NCBI RefSeq assembly: GCF_009932335.1
Contig: NZ_BLJF01000001.1
Span: 558,001-622,000 of the forward strand
Direction of reading: 5' to 3'
DNA from: Pseudomonas asiatica
GTDB lineage: Bacteria > Pseudomonadota > Gammaproteobacteria > Pseudomonadales > Pseudomonadaceae
DNA length: 64,000 nucleotides
A program made the position numbers and the translations under genes. The notes beneath the pieces are model-generated. The model ran no database searches and was not told the origin of the DNA. It saw only the letters and a list, made by a program, of their open reading frames with translations. Numbering within the stretch: the first letter of the stretch is position 1; every line of letters starts with the position of its first letter. This document shows, piece by piece, positions 2,264 through 14,189 of this stretch.

Positions 2264-2581
2264 TCAGCTGGCGCTGACTTTCAGGCCGACCAGGCCGGTA
2301 ATGATCAGCGCCACGCTGACCAGGCGTACCAGGGCCATGGACTCGCCGAACAGGATGATGCCGGCGATCACCGTGCCGACGGCGCCGACGCCGGTCCATA
2401 TGGCATAGGCGGTACCCAGCGGCAACTCTTTCATGGCCAGGCCCAGCAGGCCTAGGCTGATGGCCATGGCGGCGACGGTGAGGACGGTGGGCAGTGGTTT
2501 GCTGAAGCCGTCGGTGTATTTCAGGCCGACGGCCCAGCCGACCTCGAACAGGCCGGCGAAGAACAGGATGATCCAGGACAT
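2264..2581 (-). CDS. sugE: SMR-family guanidinium exporter SugE/Gdx
   Basis: The 105-residue protein has four predicted membrane helices and the length of the small multidrug resistance family. The opening [26 protein letters not shown] contains the conserved Glu of helix 1 and matches the SugE/Gdx branch, whose members export guanidinium in exchange for protons. The strongest support is context: a guanidine-II (mini-ykkC) riboswitch lies directly upstream on the same strand, so expression should rise when guanidine binds. A GGAG ribosome site is about 9 bases before the ATG. It converges on the acyltransferase gene, with only 9 bases between the stop codons. Confidence 0.93.
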
Positions 2582-2607
2582 GGTGCGTCTCCATCGTTGT
2601 GAATGAT

Positions 2608-2656
2608 GGGGCCGTCCCCGGAATGGTCACGCTGTGCGTCGTGAGGTCGTCCTCAC
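2608..2656 (-). promoter_or_regulatory. Guanidine-II riboswitch (mini-ykkC)
   Basis: On the minus strand two short hairpins follow each other: GTGAGG-ACGA-CCTCAC (2656-2641) and GGGG-ACGG-CCCC (2619-2608). Both loops fit the ACGR consensus that defines the guanidine-II class, and the stems are perfect. The second hairpin ends about 27 bases before the sugE start codon, consistent with control of ribosome access. The gene it precedes is the expected target of this class. Confidence 0.93.
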
Positions 2657-2694
2657 AGTGGATACATGGTGCACACCTGCAGCCCTAGGGGCAA

Positions 2695-5100: not shown

Positions 5101-5176
5101 GGGTGATTAGCTCAGCCGGGAGAGCATCTGCCTTACAAGCAGAGGGTCGGCGGTTCGATCCCGTCATCACCCACCA
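5101..5176 (+). tRNA. tRNA-Val (anticodon TAC), copy 1
   Basis: 76 bases including an encoded CCA. The acceptor arms GGGTGAT (5101-5107) and ATCACCC (5166-5172) pair perfectly. The anticodon loop reads CTTACAA with anticodon TAC, and the T arm contains GGTTCGATCC. Confidence 0.97.
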
Positions 5177-5189
5177 CTCGATGTTTAGC

Positions 5190-5266
5190 GCAGCGGTAGT
5201 TCAGTCGGTTAGAATACCGGCCTGTCACGCCGGGGGTCGCGGGTTCGAGTCCCGTCCGCTGCGCCA
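5190..5266 (+). tRNA. tRNA-Asp (anticodon GTC), copy 1
   Basis: 77 bases including CCA. The acceptor arms GCAGCGG and CCGCTGC pair, the discriminator base is G, and the anticodon is GTC at 5224-5226. It lies 13 bases after tRNA-Val and is expected to be cut from the same transcript. Confidence 0.97.
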
Positions 5267-5436: not shown

Positions 5437-5512
5437 GGGTGATTAGCTCAGCCGGGAGAGCATCTGCCTTACAAGCAGAGGGTCGGCGGTTCGATCCCGT
5501 CATCACCCACCA
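5437..5512 (+). tRNA. tRNA-Val (anticodon TAC), copy 2
   Basis: Identical to copy 1 over all 76 bases and displaced by 336 bases. Confidence 0.97.
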
Positions 5513-5525
5513 CTCGATGTTTAGC

Positions 5526-5602
5526 GCAGCGGTAGTTCAGTCGGTTAGAATACCGGCCTGTCACGCCGGGGGTCGCGGGTTCGAGTCCCGTCCGCTGCGC
5601 CA
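5526..5602 (+). tRNA. tRNA-Asp (anticodon GTC), copy 2
   Basis: Identical to copy 1 over all 77 bases and displaced by 336 bases; anticodon GTC. Confidence 0.97.
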
Positions 5603-6665: not shown

Positions 6666-6682
6666 TGCCATCGCATGGTGCA
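6666..6682. promoter_or_regulatory. Candidate NtrC binding site upstream of nasA
   Basis: The sequence TGCCATCGCATGGTGCA has the NtrC spacing (TGCAC-N7-GTGCA). The right half is perfect and the left half matches only TGC. It lies about 125 bases upstream of the sigma-54 promoter, at the same relative place as the better site before nirB. Confidence 0.55.
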
Positions 6683-6683
6683 C

Positions 6684-6791
6684 AGCCTGTACCGGCCTCT
6701 TCGCGGGCACGCCCGCTCCCACAGGTGCAGCACCGCCCTCAGGCCTTGCGATATCCCTGTGGGAGCGGGCATGCCCGCGAAAGGGGCGGCA
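6684..6791. repeat. REP inverted pair between NtrC-like site and nasA promoter
   Basis: Inverted pair, bodies TTCGCGGGCACGCCCGCTCC and GGGCATGCCCGCGA. It fills almost all the space between the candidate NtrC site and the -24/-12 promoter. Confidence 0.87.
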
Positions 6792-6794
6792 CAG

Positions 6795-6811
6795 CTGGCC
6801 CATAAATTGCT
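6795..6811 (+). promoter_or_regulatory. Sigma-54 (-24/-12) promoter of nasA
   Basis: CTGGCCCATAAATTGCT has GG (6797-6798) and GC (6809-6810) exactly ten bases apart and the TTGCT -12 element. Transcription would start near 6822, just before the structured leader. Confidence 0.75.
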
Positions 6812-6827
6812 GTTTCACCTCCATCCA

Positions 6828-6919
6828 GGGCTATCAACGTCGACAGCCCACAAAACTTCACGACAAAGGCGCCGTGTTGCCCCGCTTGCCCAGCAAGCAG
6901 GGGCAGCCGGCGCCTTTTT
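6828..6919 (+). promoter_or_regulatory. nasA leader: two ANTAR-type hexaloop hairpins and terminator
   Basis: Hairpin P1 (6828-6849) pairs GGGCT-a-TC with GA-c-AGCCC around the loop AACGTC. Hairpin P2 (6859-6876) pairs CACG-a-C with G-c-CGTG around the loop AAAGGC. Both loops have A at position 1 and G at position 4, the signature recognised by ANTAR antiterminators. P2 shares bases 6871-6874 with a long terminator (outer stem GGCGCCG 6868-6874 / CGGCGCC 6908-6914, inner stem GCCCC-GCTTGC, five Ts), so P2 and terminator are mutually exclusive. The nasA start codon is 24 bases after the T tract. A NasT/NasR-like protein encoded elsewhere is implied. Confidence 0.85.
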
Positions 6920-6942
6920 GCGTTCCCTACAGGAGCCCGCCC

Positions 6943-9900
6943 ATGGCCAACAGCGAAGTGCGCAGCGTCTGCCCCTACTGCGGCGTCGGTTGCGGCATCG
7001 TCATGAGCGTCGCCGATGGCAAGGTCGGCAAGATCAGCGGCGACAAGCAGCACCCCAGCAACTTCGGCCGCCTGTGCACCAAAGGCCTCACCGCACACCT
7101 GCCGCTGACCGCCGCCGGGCGCATGGAGGATGCCTATGTGCGCCAGCAGCGCAGCCAGCAGCCAGCGCGTACCGGTATCGACCAGGCCATCGCCGCCGCC
7201 GCTGCGCGCCTGCGCGGCATCATCGACCAGCACGGCCCCGACGCCGTGGCGCTGTACGTGTCCGGGCAGATGTCGCTGGAGGCGCAGTACCTGGCCAACA
7301 AGCTGGCCAAGGGCTTTATCCGCACCCGCCACATCGAGTCCAACTCGCGCCTGTGCATGGCCAGTGCCGGCAGCGGCTACAAGCTGTCGCTCGGTGCCGA
7401 TGGCCCGCCCGGCAGCTACCAGGACTTCGAGCACGCCGACGTATTCCTGGTGATCGGCGCCAACATGGCCGATTGTCACCCGATCCTGTTCCTGCGCCTG
7501 CTCGATCGGGTCAAGGCGGGGGCCAAGCTGATCGTCGTCGATCCGCGGCGCAGCGCCACCGCCGACAAGGCCGACCTGTTCCTGCAGGTGCGTCCCGGCA
7601 GCGACATGGCCTTGCTCAACGGCCTGCTGCACCTGCTGCTGCGTAACGGCCACACCGACCCCGACTTCATCGCCCGCCACACCGAAGGCTGGGACGAACT
7701 GCCGGCCTTTCTCGATGACTACACCCCTGACCGGGTGGCAGCCGTCACGGGGCTGGCCGAGGCCGACATCATCAAGGCCGCCGAATGGATCGGCAGCGCC
7801 AGCAACTGGATGAGCTGCTGGACCATGGGCCTGAACCAGAGCATCCACGGCACCTGGCACACCAATGCGATCTGCAACCTGCACCTGGCCACGGGCGCGA
7901 TCTGCCGCCCGGGCAGCGGTCCGTTCTCGCTGACCGGCCAACCCAATGCCATGGGCGGCCGCGAGATGGGCTACATGGGCCCCGGCCTGCCAGGTCAGCG
8001 TTCGGCGCTGCTAGCGCAAGACCGAGCCTTCGTCGAGCAGCAGTGGCAACTGGCCCCGGGCAGCCTGCGCAACGAAGGCGGCGAGGGCACGGTGGCGCTG
8101 TTCGAGCAGATGAAAAGCGGCGCGGTAAAGGCCTGCTGGGTCATCTGCAGCAACCCGGTGGCCAGTGTCGCCAACCGCCAGCAGGTGATCGACGGCCTGC
8201 GCCAGGCCGAACTGGTAATTACCCAGGATGCCTTCCTCGACACCGAGACCAACCGCTACGCCGACATCCTGCTACCGGCTGCACTTTGGGCCGAAGGCGA
8301 GGGCGTGATGATCAACAGCGAGCGTAACCTCACCCTAATGCCACGTGCCGTCGAACCGCCCGGGCAGAGCCTGCCAGACTGGCAGATCATCGCCCGGGTC
8401 GCCTGCGCCATGGGCTATGCCGACGCCTTTGACTACCCCGATGCCGAGGCGGTGTACGAGGAGATCCGCCGCTTTCACAACCCAACCACCGGCTACGACC
8501 TGCGGGGCATCGGCTATGCCGAACTGCGCGAGCAGCCGCACCAGTGGCCCTGCGCCCCGGGCCGCGACAACCCGCGCAGCCCGCTGCGCTATCGCAACGA
8601 CGGCAGCAGCCAGACGCTGTTGCGCGATGCCCAGGGCGAGTGCCCGGTGTTGGCCTTCCCGACCGCCAGCGGCAAGGCCCGCTTCTTCGCCCGGCCCTGG
8701 TTGCCGGCGGCGGAGCTGCCGGATGCCGATTACCCCATGGTGCTGAATACCGGCCGCGTGCAGCACCAGTGGCACACCCTGACCAAGACCGGCAAGGTAG
8801 CGGCGCTGAACAAGCTGGAGCCCGGCCCCTTCGTGGAAATCCACCGCGACGATGCTGCCCGGCTGGGCATTGCCGAAAAGGACCAGGTGGCCATTCGCTC
8901 GCGCCGCGGGCAGGCCGTGCTGCCCGCGCGAATCAGCGACCGGGTCATGCCTGGCAACTGCTTTGCCCCGTTCCACTGGAACGACCTGATCGGCGAGCAA
9001 CTGGCGATCAATGCCGTGACCTGCGATGCGGTCGACCCGCTGTCGCTACAGCCGGCGTTCAAGCATTGTGCCGTGACCCTGGAGCGGGTTGCCGGTGAGC
9101 GCATCGAAGCCCTTGATCTGAACACTGCCAATCCGGAGCCTGCCCGCATGCCGACCGCCACCCTGTCCCGTCTGCTTGGCCTGGACACCCTGCCAGCTCC
9201 GGTGCTGGCCGAGGAAGAGCGCCATTACCTGCAAGGCTTTCTGCTGGGCCTGGACCAGGCTCGCGCCGAGGGCGTGCCCTGTCTGCCGGCCAGTGCGCCG
9301 CTGGCCGCCAACCGCCGGTTGTTCGTCGATGGCTTGCTGGCCGGGCTGTTCGCCCAGCCGGCGGTGCTGCCCGATGCGGCGTTGATGGCACCACGGCACC
9401 AGGTGCTGTGGGCTTCGCAAACCGGCAACGGCGAGCTGTTGGCCGAACGCTGTGCCGAGCGCCTGCGCGGTGCCGGCCTCGACGTGCAGCTCAGCTGCAT
9501 GGAAGCGGTCAGCCCGCGCCAGCTGCAGGGCGCCGCCAGCGTGGTGCTGATCGCCAGCACCTTTGGCGATGGTGACGCGCCCGACAGCGCAGCGGCATTC
9601 TGGCAAGCCTTGCAGGGCGAGGAGGGCGCCCACTGCGCCGAACTGCCTTTTGCCGTGCTGGCCCTGGGCGACTCCAGTTACGACCAGTTCTGCGGCTTTG
9701 GCCGCAAACTCGACCAACGCCTGGCCGAGCTGGGCGGGCGGCGCCTGCTGCAGCGGGTGGACTGCGAGCCGGACTTCGACGACGCCTTCGCCGCCTGGCT
9801 GGATGCGCTGCTGCCCACGCTAAGCAGCGCTGCTGCACCGCAACCGGTCACCGAGCCTGCGCCCGTGGCGGCCTATGGCAAGCAGCAACCCTGGGCTGCC

Positions 9901-10968
9901 ACCTTGCTGGAAAACCGCCTGCTGAACGGCCCGGGTGCTACCAAGGAAACCCGTCAACTGGTGTTCGACCTCAGCGGCAGCGGCTTCACCTATGCCGCCG
10001 GTGATGCCCTGGGCGTGTGGCCGCGTAACTGTCCCGCCCTGGTCGACGAGCTGCTGGCGCTGATACAGCTCGATGGCCAGACCATGGTCGAACTGAAAGG
10101 CCAGCCCGCCATGCCGCTGACCGAAGCCCTGCAAGCGCACCTGGAAATCGCCAAGGTCACCACGCAGCAGCTGCAGGCCTTCGCCGGCAATGCCCCGGAC
10201 CTGCATCGCCTGCTGCAGCCCGAGTGCAAGGCCGAGCTGCAGGACTGGTTGTGGGGGCGGCAACTGGTCGATGTGCTGCGCGCCTTCCCCCAGCAACTGC
10301 CGCTGGCCAGCTGGCTGGAGCTGCTCAAGCCCTTGCAGCCGCGCCTGTACTCGATCAGCTCCAGCCCGCTGGCGCACCCGCAGCAGGTGCACCTGACCGT
10401 GTCCACGGTGCGCTATGGCGCGCGCAAAGGGGTGTGTTCAAGCTTCCTTGCCGACCGTGCGCAGGCGCTGAAGGTTGCCATCTTCCCGCAGGTGTCGAAG
10501 CACTTTCGCCTGCCCGAGGACGACAGCGTGCCGGTGATCATGGTCGGCCCCGGCACCGGCATTGCGCCGTTCAGGGCCTTTCTCGAAGAACGAGAGGCAC
10601 GTGGGGCGAAAGGGGCTAACTGGCTGTTCTTTGGCGAGCAGTACGCGGCCACCGATTTCTATTACCAGGAGCAGCTACAGGCCTGGCAGGCTGCAGGGCA
10701 CTTGCGCCTGGACACAGCGTTCTCGCGCGACCAGGCCGAGAAGGTCTACGTGCAGCAGCGCATGCTCGAGCACGGCGCGCAGTTGTGGCAGTGGCTGGAG
10801 GCGGGCGCGTACTTCTATGTGTGTGGCGATGCGCAGCGCATGGCCAAGGATGTGGATGCGGCGTTGCGGGTCATCGTCGCCGAGCATGGCAGCATGGATG
10901 CAGCGGCGGCTGCGGCTTATGTCGAAGCGCTGGGCAGGGCCAAGCGGTATCGGCGGGATGTGTATTGA
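6943..10968 (+). CDS. nasA: Assimilatory nitrate reductase fused to CysJ-like flavoreductase
   Basis: This 1341-residue cytoplasmic enzyme should reduce nitrate to nitrite with NAD(P)H in one chain. Residues 1-60 carry the 4Fe-4S motif CPYCGVGCG plus a later Cys in LCTKG. Residues 60-580 are the molybdopterin oxidoreductase core ([31 protein letters not shown]). Residues 596-712 form the molybdopterin-dinucleotide binding domain. Residues about 818-960 are a flavodoxin domain (WASQTGNGE). The rest is a CysJ/P450-reductase-type FAD and NAD(P)H module (RLYSISSSP near 1133, [12 protein letters not shown] near 1202, YVCGD near 1290). The ATG at 6943 follows CAGGAG. The fusion supplies its own electron donor and replaces a separate NasB-type reductase. 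Control is discussed at the leader. Confidence 0.93.
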
Positions 10969-10990: not shown

Positions 10991-11007
10991 TGCACTTGGA
11001 ATGTGCA
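10991..11007. promoter_or_regulatory. NtrC binding site upstream of nirBD
   Basis: TGCACTTGGAATGTGCA is a perfect TGCAC-N7-GTGCA dyad, the NtrC enhancer consensus. It lies 22 bases after the nasA stop codon and about 130 bases upstream of the nirB sigma-54 promoter. Confidence 0.78.
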
Positions 11008-11011
11008 TTTG

Positions 11012-11120
11012 CTGTACTTGCCTCTTCGCGGGCACGCCCGCTCCTACAGGTACTGCACAGGTCTGAATAAACGTGGAGAACCCTGTAGGAGCGGGCGTGC
11101 CCGCGAAGAGGCCGGTACAG
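11012..11120. repeat. REP inverted pair between NtrC site and nirB promoter
   Basis: Inverted pair with body TTCGCGGGCACGCCCGCTCC, filling the gap between the NtrC dyad and the -24 element, as at nasA. Confidence 0.88.
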
Positions 11121-11129
11121 GAAACAGGG

Positions 11130-11147
11130 TTGGCACACTCCCTGCTT
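11130..11147 (+). promoter_or_regulatory. Sigma-54 (-24/-12) promoter of nirBD
   Basis: TTGGCACACTCCCTGCTT has GG (11132-11133) and GC (11144-11145) ten bases apart and a full TTGGCAC -24 box. Transcription would start near 11157. Confidence 0.82.
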
Positions 11148-11171
11148 TATCCCAGTTACAACAAAGCCCAC

Positions 11172-11258
11172 TGATCAACGGCGATCAACCCGGGCCCCCT
11201 ACCGTGATGAATACAGGCAAAGGCGCCTGGAGCTTCGGCTCCAGGCGCTTTTTTTTTT
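11172..11258 (+). promoter_or_regulatory. nirB leader: two ANTAR-type hexaloop hairpins and terminator
   Basis: P1 (11172-11187) is TGATC-[AACGGC]-GATCA. P2 (11214-11229) is CAGGC-[AAAGGC]-GCCTG. Both have perfect five-pair stems and A1/G4 hexaloops. The P2 3' arm lies inside the ascending arm of the terminator (GCGCCTGGAGC 11223-11233, TTCG loop, GCTCCAGGCGC 11238-11248, then ten Ts). P2 formation therefore prevents termination. The P2 loop is identical to that of the nasA leader, and the nirB ATG is 17 bases after the T tract. Confidence 0.88.
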
Positions 11259-11274
11259 GATCGAGGATCGGCTT

Positions 11275-13827
11275 ATGAAGGCAACAGCGAGCAGCGGGCA
11301 ACGAGAGCGACTGGTCATCGTCGGCAACGGCATGGTCGGCCACCATTGCGTCGAACAACTGGTCAGCCGCGGCGGCTTGCAGCGCTTCGAAGTGCATGTG
11401 TTCGGCGAAGAGCGCCAGCGTGCCTACGACCGCGTGCACCTGTCCGAGTACTTCGGCGGCAGCTGTGCCGAAACCCTGGCCCTGTGCGGGCAGGACTTCT
11501 ACGGCGCCAACGGTGTGCACCTGCACCTCGGTGAAGGGGTGCTGGAAATCGACCGTGAGCACGCCGAAGTGGTTACCGCCGAGGGCCGCTACGGCTACGA
11601 CCAGTTGGTGCTGGCCACGGGTTCCTATCCCTTCGTGCCACCGATCGAAGGTTCCAGCGGCAATGCCCGCCTGGTCTACCGCACCCTCGACGACCTCGAC
11701 GCCATCCGCGCTGCCGCAGCCAGTGCCCGACGTGGCGTGGTAGTGGGCGGTGGCCTGCTTGGCCTGGAAGCAGCCAACGCCCTCAAGTCGCTGGGCCTGG
11801 AAGCCCACGTGGTGGAGTTCGCCCCACGGCTGATGCCGGTGCAGCTGGACGGCGAGGGCGGTGCCGCGCTCAAGGCACAGATCGAAGCGCTGGGTGTTGG
11901 CGTGCATCTGTCGCGGGCCACCCAGTCGATCAGTGCGGGTGAAGACTACCGCTACCGCATGAACTTCGATGGCGGCGAGCACCTGGAAACCGACCTGATC
12001 GTGTTCTCCGCAGGTATCCGCCCGCAGGATGCCCTGGGCCGTGCCTGTGGCCTGGACATCGCCGCGCGTGGCGGCGTGGTGATCGACAACCATTGCCGCA
12101 GCAGCGACCCACGCATCTTCGCCATCGGCGAGTGCGCCTCGTGGAACGGCAGCGTGTTCGGCCTGGTCGCCCCTGGCTACAGCATGGCGCGCAACCTGGC
12201 GGCTTTGCTGATGGGTGAGGCCGCTGGCGAATTCACCGGTGCCGACATGTCGACCAAGCTCAAGTTGCTGGGCGTGGATGTCGGCTCCATCGGCGATGCC
12301 CATGGCGCCACCCCGGGCGCACGCAGCTACCGCTTCATCGACGAAGCCAACAGCGCCTACCGCCGGCTGGTGGTGGATGCCAGCGGCAAGCACGTGCTCG
12401 GTGCGGTGCTGGTGGGCGACAACAGCTACTACGACACCCTTCTGCAATACGCCCAGAACGGCATCGCCCTGCCAGCCGACCCCGCGGCACTGATCCTGCC
12501 GCAAGGCGGCGGCGCACCGGCCCTGGGCGCCGATGCGCTGCCCGATAGCGCGACCATCTGCTCGTGCCACAACGTCAGCAAGGGCGCGGTCTGCGCCGCC
12601 ATAGACAGCGGCTGCGGCGACCTTGCCGCAGTCAAGGGCTGCACCAAGGCCGCCACCGGTTGTGGTGGTTGCGCGGCACTGCTCAAGCAGGTGTTCGAGC
12701 ACGAGCTGACCGCCCGTGGCGTGGCGGTGGACAAGAGCCTGTGCGAGCACTTCGCCTACACCCGTCAGGAGCTGTACGGGCTGGTGCGGGTAGAGGGTAT
12801 CCGCACCTTCAACGAACTGCTCGAACGCCACGGCAAGGGCCATGTCGGCTGCGATATCTGCAAGCCGGCGGTGGGCAGCATCCTTGCCTCGTGCTGGAAC
12901 CAGCCGATCATGGACCCGGCGCTGGTGCCGCTGCAGGACACCAACGACACCTTCATGGCCAACATGCAGAAGAATGGCACCTACTCGGTGGTGCCGCGCA
13001 TCCCCGGTGGTGAAATCACCCCCGACAAGCTCATCGTGATCGGCCAGGTGGCGAAAAAGTACGACCTGTACACCAAGATCACCGGCGGCCAGCGCATCGA
13101 CCTGTTCGGCGCCCAGTTGCACGAGCTGCCGCTGATCTGGGGCGAGCTGATCGAGGCCGGCTTCGAAACCGGCCACGCCTACGGCAAGTCGACCCGCACG
13201 GTAAAGTCGTGCGTCGGCAGCACCTGGTGCCGTTATGGCGTGCAGGATAGCGTCGGCATGGCCCTGCGCCTGGAAGACCGCTACAAAGGCCTGCGCAGCC
13301 CGCACAAGCTCAAGTTCGCGGTGTCCGGCTGCACCCGCGAATGCGCCGAAGCACAGAGCAAGGACATCGGCGTGATCGCTACCGACAAGGGCTGGAACCT
13401 GTACGTATGCGGCAACGGCGGCATGCGCCCGCGGCACGCCGAACTGTTCGCCACCGACCTCGACGACGAAACCCTGGTGCGCCTGATCGACCGCGTGCTG
13501 ATGTTCTACATCCGCACCGCTGACAAACTGCAGCGCACCTCGGTGTGGCGCGAGAACCTGGAAGGTGGGCTGGACTACCTGAAGCAGGTGATCATCGACG
13601 ACAGCCTGGGCCTGGCCAGCGAGCTGGAGGCGCAGATGCAGCATGTGGTCGACCAGTATGAATGCGAATGGGCCAACGCCCTCAACGACCCCGAGAAGCT
13701 CAAGCGCTTCCGTACTTTCGTCAACGACCGCCGCGCCGACCCGGACGTGCACTTCGTGCGCGAACGCGAACAGCGCCGGCCTGCTGCGCCACTGCACCTG
13801 ATCCCAACCGTCGAGGAGGCTGTCTGA
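11275..13827 (+). CDS. nirB: Assimilatory nitrite reductase NAD(P)H large subunit
   Basis: The 850-residue NirB reduces nitrite to ammonium in the cytoplasm. Residues 1-330 are an FAD/NAD-binding oxidoreductase (VIVGNGMVGHHCVEQL, then VVGGGLLGLEAANALKSLG). A BFD-type 2Fe-2S domain with ICSCHNVSKG and GCTKAATGCGGC lies near 427-470. The C-terminal half is the sirohaem/4Fe-4S nitrite/sulfite reductase fold, with CVGSTWCRYG near 645 and GCTRECAEAQ near 688 as cluster ligands. The ATG at 11275 follows GAGGAT; an earlier TTG lies inside the terminator T tract and is unlikely. It overlaps nirD by one base (TGATG), so the two are translationally coupled. Sirohaem must come from a gene elsewhere. Confidence 0.97.
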   Translation: MKATASSGQRERLVIVGNGMVGHHCVEQLVSRGGLQRFEVHVFGEERQRAYDRVHLSEYFGGSCAETLALCGQDFYGANGVHLHLGEGVLEIDREHAEVVTAEGRYGYDQLVLATGSYPFVPPIEGSSGNARLVYRTLDDLDAIRAAAASARRGVVVGGGLLGLEAANALKSLGLEAHVVEFAPRLMPVQLDGEGGAALKAQIEALGVGVHLSRATQSISAGEDYRYRMNFDGGEHLETDLIVFSAGIRPQDALGRACGLDIAARGGVVIDNHCRSSDPRIFAIGECASWNGSVFGLVAPGYSMARNLAALLMGEAAGEFTGADMSTKLKLLGVDVGSIGDAHGATPGARSYRFIDEANSAYRRLVVDASGKHVLGAVLVGDNSYYDTLLQYAQNGIALPADPAALILPQGGGAPALGADALPDSATICSCHNVSKGAVCAAIDSGCGDLAAVKGCTKAATGCGGCAALLKQVFEHELTARGVAVDKSLCEHFAYTRQELYGLVRVEGIRTFNELLERHGKGHVGCDICKPAVGSILASCWNQPIMDPALVPLQDTNDTFMANMQKNGTYSVVPRIPGGEITPDKLIVIGQVAKKYDLYTKITGGQRIDLFGAQLHELPLIWGELIEAGFETGHAYGKSTRTVKSCVGSTWCRYGVQDSVGMALRLEDRYKGLRSPHKLKFAVSGCTRECAEAQSKDIGVIATDKGWNLYVCGNGGMRPRHAELFATDLDDETLVRLIDRVLMFYIRTADKLQRTSVWRENLEGGLDYLKQVIIDDSLGLASELEAQMQHVVDQYECEWANALNDPEKLKRFRTFVNDRRADPDVHFVREREQRRPAAPLHLIPTVEEAV

Positions 13828-14189
13828 TGAACTTGTCCAATGCTGCTGTGAAAACCCACGAGAACTGGCAGGCGGTGTGCCAGGCGGATGACCTGGTGGC
13901 TGATTCCGGGGTGGTGGTTTGGCTCGACGGGGCCCAGGTGGCGCTGTTCTACCTGCCGGGGCAGGTGCAGCCGCTGTACGCGGTGGACAACCGCGACCCG
14001 AGGTCCGGCGCCAACATCATCGGTCGCGGCCTGGTGGGCAGTGTGCAGGGCGAGCTGGTGGTGGCGGCGCCGTTGTACAAGCAGCACTTCAGCCTGGAGA
14101 GCGGGGAGTGCCTGGAGGATAGCGGGCAGCGCCTGCGGGTGTGGCCGGTGCGGTTGAACGGGGAGGCGGTGGAGTTGGCTGTGGCCTGA
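13827..14189 (+). CDS. nirD: Nitrite reductase NAD(P)H small subunit
   Basis: The 120-residue NirD is a Rieske-like beta fold protein that partners NirB. It starts MNLSNAAVKTHENWQAVCQADDL and contains VVVWLDGAQVALFYLPG and AVDNRDPRSGANIIGRG, typical of the small subunit. The Rieske cysteine and histidine ligands are absent, as is usual for NirD. A GAGGAGG ribosome site lies inside the end of nirB, and the start codon overlaps the nirB stop. A REP pair follows immediately and probably ends the operon. Confidence 0.95.
   Translation: MNLSNAAVKTHENWQAVCQADDLVADSGVVVWLDGAQVALFYLPGQVQPLYAVDNRDPRSGANIIGRGLVGSVQGELVVAAPLYKQHFSLESGECLEDSGQRLRVWPVRLNGEAVELAVA

Follow-up and report, generated by a model that had tools for sequence, protein, structure and literature searches.

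The Klebsiella nasF leader, which belongs to nitrate assimilation, carries hairpins with A at position 1 and G at position 4 of their hexaloops upstream of a terminator (PMC3369931), and is governed by the one-component regulator NasR (PMC3795266). A dual hexaloop is likewise present in the Enterococcus eutP leader, the target of EutV, where the second hairpin (P2) overlaps the terminator (PMC3369931, PMC8934654); EutV is phosphorylated and answers ethanolamine. In Paracoccus, the passages cited describe a NasS-NasT complex that dissociates on nitrate and a nasA leader RNA that is bound by NasT (PMC3795266). NalA, the nirBD leader of Pseudomonas aeruginosa and P. putida, combines a sigma54 promoter, a terminator and antitermination by NasT (PMC12830290, PMC3973561). 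According to a review, NalA needs NasT in P. putida and nalA starts from a sigma54 promoter (PMC12830290), and deletion of nasT in P. putida is reported to abolish growth on nitrate (PMC7261876).

The DNA analysed here, referred to as the window, is a stretch of 64,000 nt from Pseudomonas asiatica (contig NZ_BLJF01000001.1, positions 558,001 to 622,000). The leader upstream of its nasA gene is very probably an attenuation leader of the NasT/ANTAR kind, through which transcription responds to nitrate. The mechanism is a known one and the leader is a new member. It resembles the nasF leader in the A1/G4 hexaloops, the eutP leader in the overlap of P2 and terminator, and NalA in its sigma54-type promoter and terminator; it differs from NalA in being a distinct copy whose P1 and P2 have sequences of their own. 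The regulators also differ: P. asiatica has NasS-NasT where Klebsiella has the one-component NasR, and where EutV is phosphorylated, a partner protein that binds nitrate is expected to sequester NasT.

Table 1. Parts of the nasA and nirB leaders, and the genes behind them (positions in the window).
Feature	Position	Strand	Sequence or basis
Putative sigma54 (-24/-12) promoter of nasA, TGGCCCATAAATTGCT	6796..6811	+	Sequence; conserved box; Rfam narK positions 1-15
P1 hairpin of nasA leader	6828..6849	+	GGGCTATC[AACGTC]GACAGCCC, hexaloop 6836-6841
P2 hairpin (antiterminator) of nasA leader	6859..6876	+	CACGAC[AAAGGC]GCCGTG, hexaloop 6865-6870
Intrinsic terminator of nasA leader	6865..6919	+	U5 at 6915-6919 after the 3' arm
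nasA, nitrate reductase with C-terminal flavodoxin/FAD/NAD reductase half	6943..10968	+	Pfam molybdopterin, flavodoxin, FAD and NAD domains
Putative sigma54 promoter of nirB, TGGCACACTCCCTGCT	11131..11146	+	Read against the -24/-12 consensus
P1 hairpin of nirB leader, TGATC[AACGGC]GATCA	11172..11187	+	Motif scan
P2 hairpin of nirB leader, CAGGC[AAAGGC]GCCTG	11214..11229	+	Motif scan gives 11212-11231 with one mismatch
Terminator of nirB leader, overlapping P2, with U run	11219..11258	+	Sequence and motif scan
nirB, assimilatory nitrite reductase large subunit	11275..13827	+	TIGR02374, 1068 bits (cut-off 578)
nirD, nitrite reductase small subunit	13827..14189	+	TIGR02378, 101.6 bits (cut-off 74.65)

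The original prediction had proposed two hairpins with loops AACGTC and AAAGGC, A1 and G4 in both, one mismatch in each stem, and a strong terminator overlapping the second hairpin ahead of a nitrate reductase gene. The sequence and a motif scan bear out this anatomy (Table 1). Seven of the eight P1 pairs are formed, the exception (A6833.C6844) being the third pair from the loop, as are five of the six P2 pairs, where the exception (A6863.C6872) is the second pair from the loop. The 5' arm of the terminator begins at 6865, the first base of the P2 loop, and the entire P2 loop and P2 3' strand are therefore common to both structures. The region 6780-6930 has a folding z-score of -5.74, and none of 200 shuffles was equally stable. 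This terminator was missing from the output of a simple terminator scan of the plus strand, for which its long, bulged stem is the probable reason. The transcript would be expected to start near 6821, just 5' of P1. The domains of the nasA product are those of an assimilatory nitrate reductase fused to a CysJ-like reductase; among the NCBIfam matches listed, no nitrate-reductase model exceeded its cut-off. Four elements were absent from the original prediction, namely the coverage by the Rfam narK family, the sigma54-type promoter, the nirB leader and a leader between nasT and a transporter gene.

A search against Rfam retrieved the narK RNA (RF03032) at 6797-6875 with 51.8 bits, above the gathering threshold of 43.2. 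The first 15 positions of this model (GGCaCAgcucUUGCU) align to GGCCCATAAATTGCT upstream of nasA, so that the start of the model looks like a sigma54 -24/-12 promoter and not like RNA. Both the nasA and the nirB box were read against the general -24/-12 consensus. In the structure line of RF03032 P1 alone is paired, P2 is unpaired, and the model ends inside the 5' arm of the terminator. The P11 sRNA family (RF00625, gathering threshold 70 bits) scored below its threshold in both the nasA leader (22.9 bits) and the nirB leader (37.2 bits). Literature searches for the narK RNA and RF03032, the former also together with ANTAR, found no paper in the collection searched, from which we do not claim that none is in print. 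Matches to eukaryotic microRNAs at 6673-6805 and 11003-11126 were far under their cut-offs, lie on a palindromic repeat and were discarded. Elsewhere in the window, a Guanidine-II riboswitch (2607-2658, minus strand; 43.6 bits, gathering threshold 32) precedes a small transporter-like open reading frame (2264-2581, minus strand) that we read as SMR type, and two tRNA genes occur as a duplicated pair (5101-5263 and 5437-5599), the copies scoring identically in Rfam.

We scanned for two A..G.. hexaloops on stems of at least four pairs with at most one mismatch, joined by a linker of at most 45 nt and overlapping a terminator with a T run. On both strands of the window there were two matches, the nasA leader and the nirB leader (11172). 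Sixty dinucleotide shuffles of the window gave 16 matches in 12 shuffles (about 0.27 per shuffled window), and a control on real sequence, both strands of 80 nasA loci (1,077,393 bases), gave ten matches outside the leader classes (about 0.6 per 64 kb). A single match is thus unremarkable, but it is striking to find two in one window and both immediately 5' of nitrate-assimilation genes. The motif alone is weak evidence, and the case rests on place, repetition and conservation. These frequencies lend something to the view that an ordinary terminator happens to follow a chance hairpin, with nasA controlled at its promoter alone and no regulator involved. We nevertheless consider this very improbable, since both loops are kept upstream of most nasA genes while the P1 stem changes with compensation, two more sites lie at genes of the pathway, and transcription from the promoter could reach the gene only if something overcame the terminator in between.

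Conservation was assessed in 81 nasA upstream regions (the window and the best 80 loci of a longer list), with a pattern requiring GGC and then GCC for loop 2. Both hexaloops were found in 69, and in 68 of these a sigma54 box lies before P1. The 12 regions in which our pattern did not find both loops are all outside Pseudomonas by their record titles; four of them, all from Pectobacterium, match R1, a covariance model that we built from 30 leaders of mixed gene classes, and have a fully paired P2 (GGAC/GTCC). Among the 69 leaders, P1 loops were AACGTC (35), AACGCA (10), AATGCC (8), AACGCC (6), AACGCT (5), AACGAC (4) and AAAGGC (1), and P2 loops were AAAGGC (65), AACGGC (2) and GAAGGC (2). The two GAAGGC loops (L067 and L071) have G at position 1 and break the A1 rule. 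In Pseudomonas typographi (L121:4901-4943) the loops are swapped, with AAAGGC in P1 and AACGGC in P2, and the A.C mismatch is retained. Some loci (e.g. L084-L086, L092 and L094) have a nirB-type P2 5' of nasA on the minus strand, where P1 is doubtful.

Covariation was examined in an alignment of 45 of the 69 leaders, hand-picked to span the set. Two-sided, that is compensatory, changes were present in seven of the eight P1 pairs and in eight of the 19 terminator pairs. With P1 and P2 taken together, 84.4% of cells were paired, with 35 two-sided changes against 14.8 in shuffled alignments; for P1 with the terminator the values were 90.8% and 63 against 23.3. Neither covariation score was reached by any of 500 shuffles. 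P2 is nearly frozen in sequence within these 45 leaders, with no two-sided change in any of its six pairs, and its second pair is unpaired in 43 of them. Across gene classes, two of four P2 pairs covary (C-G/A-U/G-C and A-U/G-C), except in the A.C cells. In this cross-class test the covariation score (0.567 against 0.188 shuffled), the paired cells and the two-sided cells all beat 500 of 500 shuffles; the numbers of two-sided pairs and of pair types were not above shuffles (reached by 143 and 97 of 500, respectively). A palindrome GRCGYC common to loop 2 and the 3' strand was considered and abandoned, being broken by P11-type leaders (AAAGGC GTCC).

It is noticeable that the second P2 pair from the loop is A.C in 66 of the 69 nasA leaders and G-C in three, A-U in the transporter and P11 classes, and G-C in the nirB class. 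The mismatched C pairs with a G in the terminator in all 45 aligned nasA leaders, and this base therefore serves the terminator alone in these leaders. An extended terminator does not account for the conserved A, as a 3' arm TTTGTCG or TTCGTCG could pair with it in nine of the 45 leaders and not in 36, by our count. The P1 mismatch pair is less constant (A-T 28, A.C 16, G-T 16, G-C 8 and C-G 1 of 69). Predicted P2 energies make nasA the weakest of four classes, with medians of -2.3 (nasA), -4.2 (transporter), -5.4 (P11) and -8.6 kcal/mol (nirB), although the medians are partly circular because P2 sequence was used to sort the classes; the census above, which goes by position upstream of nasA, is less so. 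P2 is predicted to be weaker for nasA than for nirB in each of the 44 loci with both. Possibly, though we hold it tentatively and as less likely than its contrary, the A.C pair is a selected tuning element that would let the transporter and nitrite reductase genes open at lower levels of active NasT than nasA does. Alternatively, NasT reads the A.C pair directly (as A+.C), or the pair is retained through lineage inertia.

An antiterminator of the NasT/NasR type encoded outside the window had been predicted, and in keeping with this the genome search found one ANTAR gene, nasT, outside the window. Its product has a receiver and an ANTAR domain, and the gene adjoins an NMT1-like nasS candidate on the same strand, the arrangement of NasS-NasT systems, with a narK-family transporter gene downstream. 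NasT aligns to EutV over nearly its full length. Of six EutV contacts to RNA, taken from the passages cited (PMC8934654), it keeps four by our count (R142, K143, Y164 and M172), with K for R177 and Q for K147. The region between nasT and the transporter gene holds the other narK RNA of the genome (RF03032, 76.8 bits). The same layout, nasT upstream and a transporter downstream, was present at 28 of the 30 loci with the best narK RNA matches (L004-L033); the remaining two (L007 and L022) begin close to the end of a contig and have the transporter alone. In the genome, R1 scored 50.8 bits at nasA, 43.7 at the transporter and 41.9 at nirB, the next match having 23.4 bits (150 of 6303 first-look candidates scored), and the next three matches each lack one hexaloop. 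Recovery of these three sites is by construction, as they and further sites from the genus are among the 30 behind R1; the gap in score between the three and the rest of the scored candidates is not.

The nirB leader spans 11131-11258 with its promoter box included, and is likely the counterpart of NalA. P11, which we take to be NalA, was matched in 99 of 149 Pseudomonas genomes. The window NirB is only about 34% identical to the NirB proteins behind ten P11-type leaders (L034-L043). With leaders so alike, it is as if the nirB gene had been exchanged under a retained leader. That RF00625 is named as an sRNA, and that termination would yield a transcript of about 100 nt, could suggest that the terminated leader is a small RNA acting in trans. 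This explanation seems to us a shade less credible still than a chance hairpin, given that a NirB-like gene lies downstream in all ten P11 loci examined and at the window site, with P2 and terminator overlapping. A role in trans is possible as a by-product of a terminated leader.

Across the 149 Pseudomonas genomes, R1 and ANTAR matches occurred together in 130, R1 alone in two, ANTAR alone in three and neither in 14. The corresponding numbers for RF03032 and ANTAR were 128, one, five and 15. The genus search with R1 used stricter filters than the genome search and E values up to 0.01, the limit for ANTAR and RF03032 being 0.001. Fisher's test for R1 and ANTAR gives 5e-15; kinship and loss of the whole pathway inflate this value, which should not be read as a probability of function. 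Part of the co-occurrence is explained by the pathway being present or lost as a whole. Least probable of all is a riboswitch or a peptide attenuator, with the leader itself sensing a small molecule: the Rfam entry, Cis-reg with no named ligand, leaves room for one under its neutral name, but the motif tracks ANTAR genes, and conserved columns of the nasA alignment are nearly confined to the P1 loop, P2 and the terminator, which leaves little space for an aptamer.

The discordant genomes were inspected individually. In one of the two with R1 alone (G085), the leader is kept before a shortened nasA frame (L143, 2126-3364) followed by a LysR gene, like the LysR gene after nirD in the window, and no nirB was seen in the 13.5 kb around it. 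The other (G132) is 88% complete and has its leader before nirB. No NasT-like protein was found in either, the best matches (33 and 29.3 bits, respectively) covering the receiver part. Three genomes have ANTAR alone (G001, G051 and G146). In G001 and G146, P11 matches exceed the cut-off, and the sigma54-type box, P2 (GGAC[AAAGGC]GTCC) and the terminator are kept; no P1 hexaloop was seen in these P11-class leaders (L145:2484-2610 and L146:2560-2684), which counts against reading the nasA leader as a target of NasT antitermination. The ANTAR matches of these two genomes sit in longer open frames (438 and 503 aa), and a one-component NasR-like protein may act there.

The analysis establishes the anatomy of the nasA leader, its conservation and covariation, and one NasT with three sites in the genome; binding by NasT, read-through, nitrate as the signal, and a role for NtrC and sigma54 are inferred. 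Under nitrogen limitation, phosphorylated NtrC and sigma54 would initiate the nasA transcript near 6821. With nitrate absent, NasS would hold NasT, the terminator would form and transcription would halt before nasA. With nitrate or nitrite present, freed NasT would bind the P1 and P2 hexaloops and hold P2, keeping its loop and 3' strand out of the terminator and letting polymerase enter nasA. The same NasT would act on the nirB leader and the narK-type transporter leader, so that uptake and both reductions are proposed to switch together. When prefixes starting at 6823 were folded in 4-nt steps, P2 was part of the minimum-energy fold at 54-62 and 78-86 nt and not at 66-74 nt, and the terminator appeared from 90 nt. 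The predicted interval with P2 before the terminator could be the one in which NasT captures P2.

The part played by sigma54 is less clear-cut. In the expression values cited for P. putida KT2440 under nitrogen limitation, an rpoN mutant had nirB 5.21-fold and the nitrate transporter 12.43-fold up, and the wild type 13.37-fold and 14.64-fold, respectively (PMC7801951). This induction in the mutant speaks against a strict need for sigma54. Upstream NtrC-like sites are a weak hint: over 68 rows their best matches average 7.4 of 10, slightly above the 6.7 of letter-shuffled sequence. In rows of the P. putida type the spacing of the two NtrC-like sites is constant at 31 bases, but the distance of the nearer one to the box varies: 60 bases in L050, 130 in the window, 170 in L049 and 220 in L055. 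Similar palindromic REP-like repeats (6682-6797 and 11003-11126) are located just 5' of the two sigma54-type boxes of the window.

The analysis ties the RF03032 narK RNA and P11 sRNA families to one mechanism and indicates which part of the narK model reads as a promoter instead of RNA. For P. asiatica, it outlines a compact NasT regulon, in which three sites serve nitrate uptake and the reduction of both nitrate and nitrite. The nasA-specific P2 mismatch gives a handle on whether antiterminator strength orders induction within this regulon; if the tuning proposed above were true, no nitrite would be made before its removal is possible.
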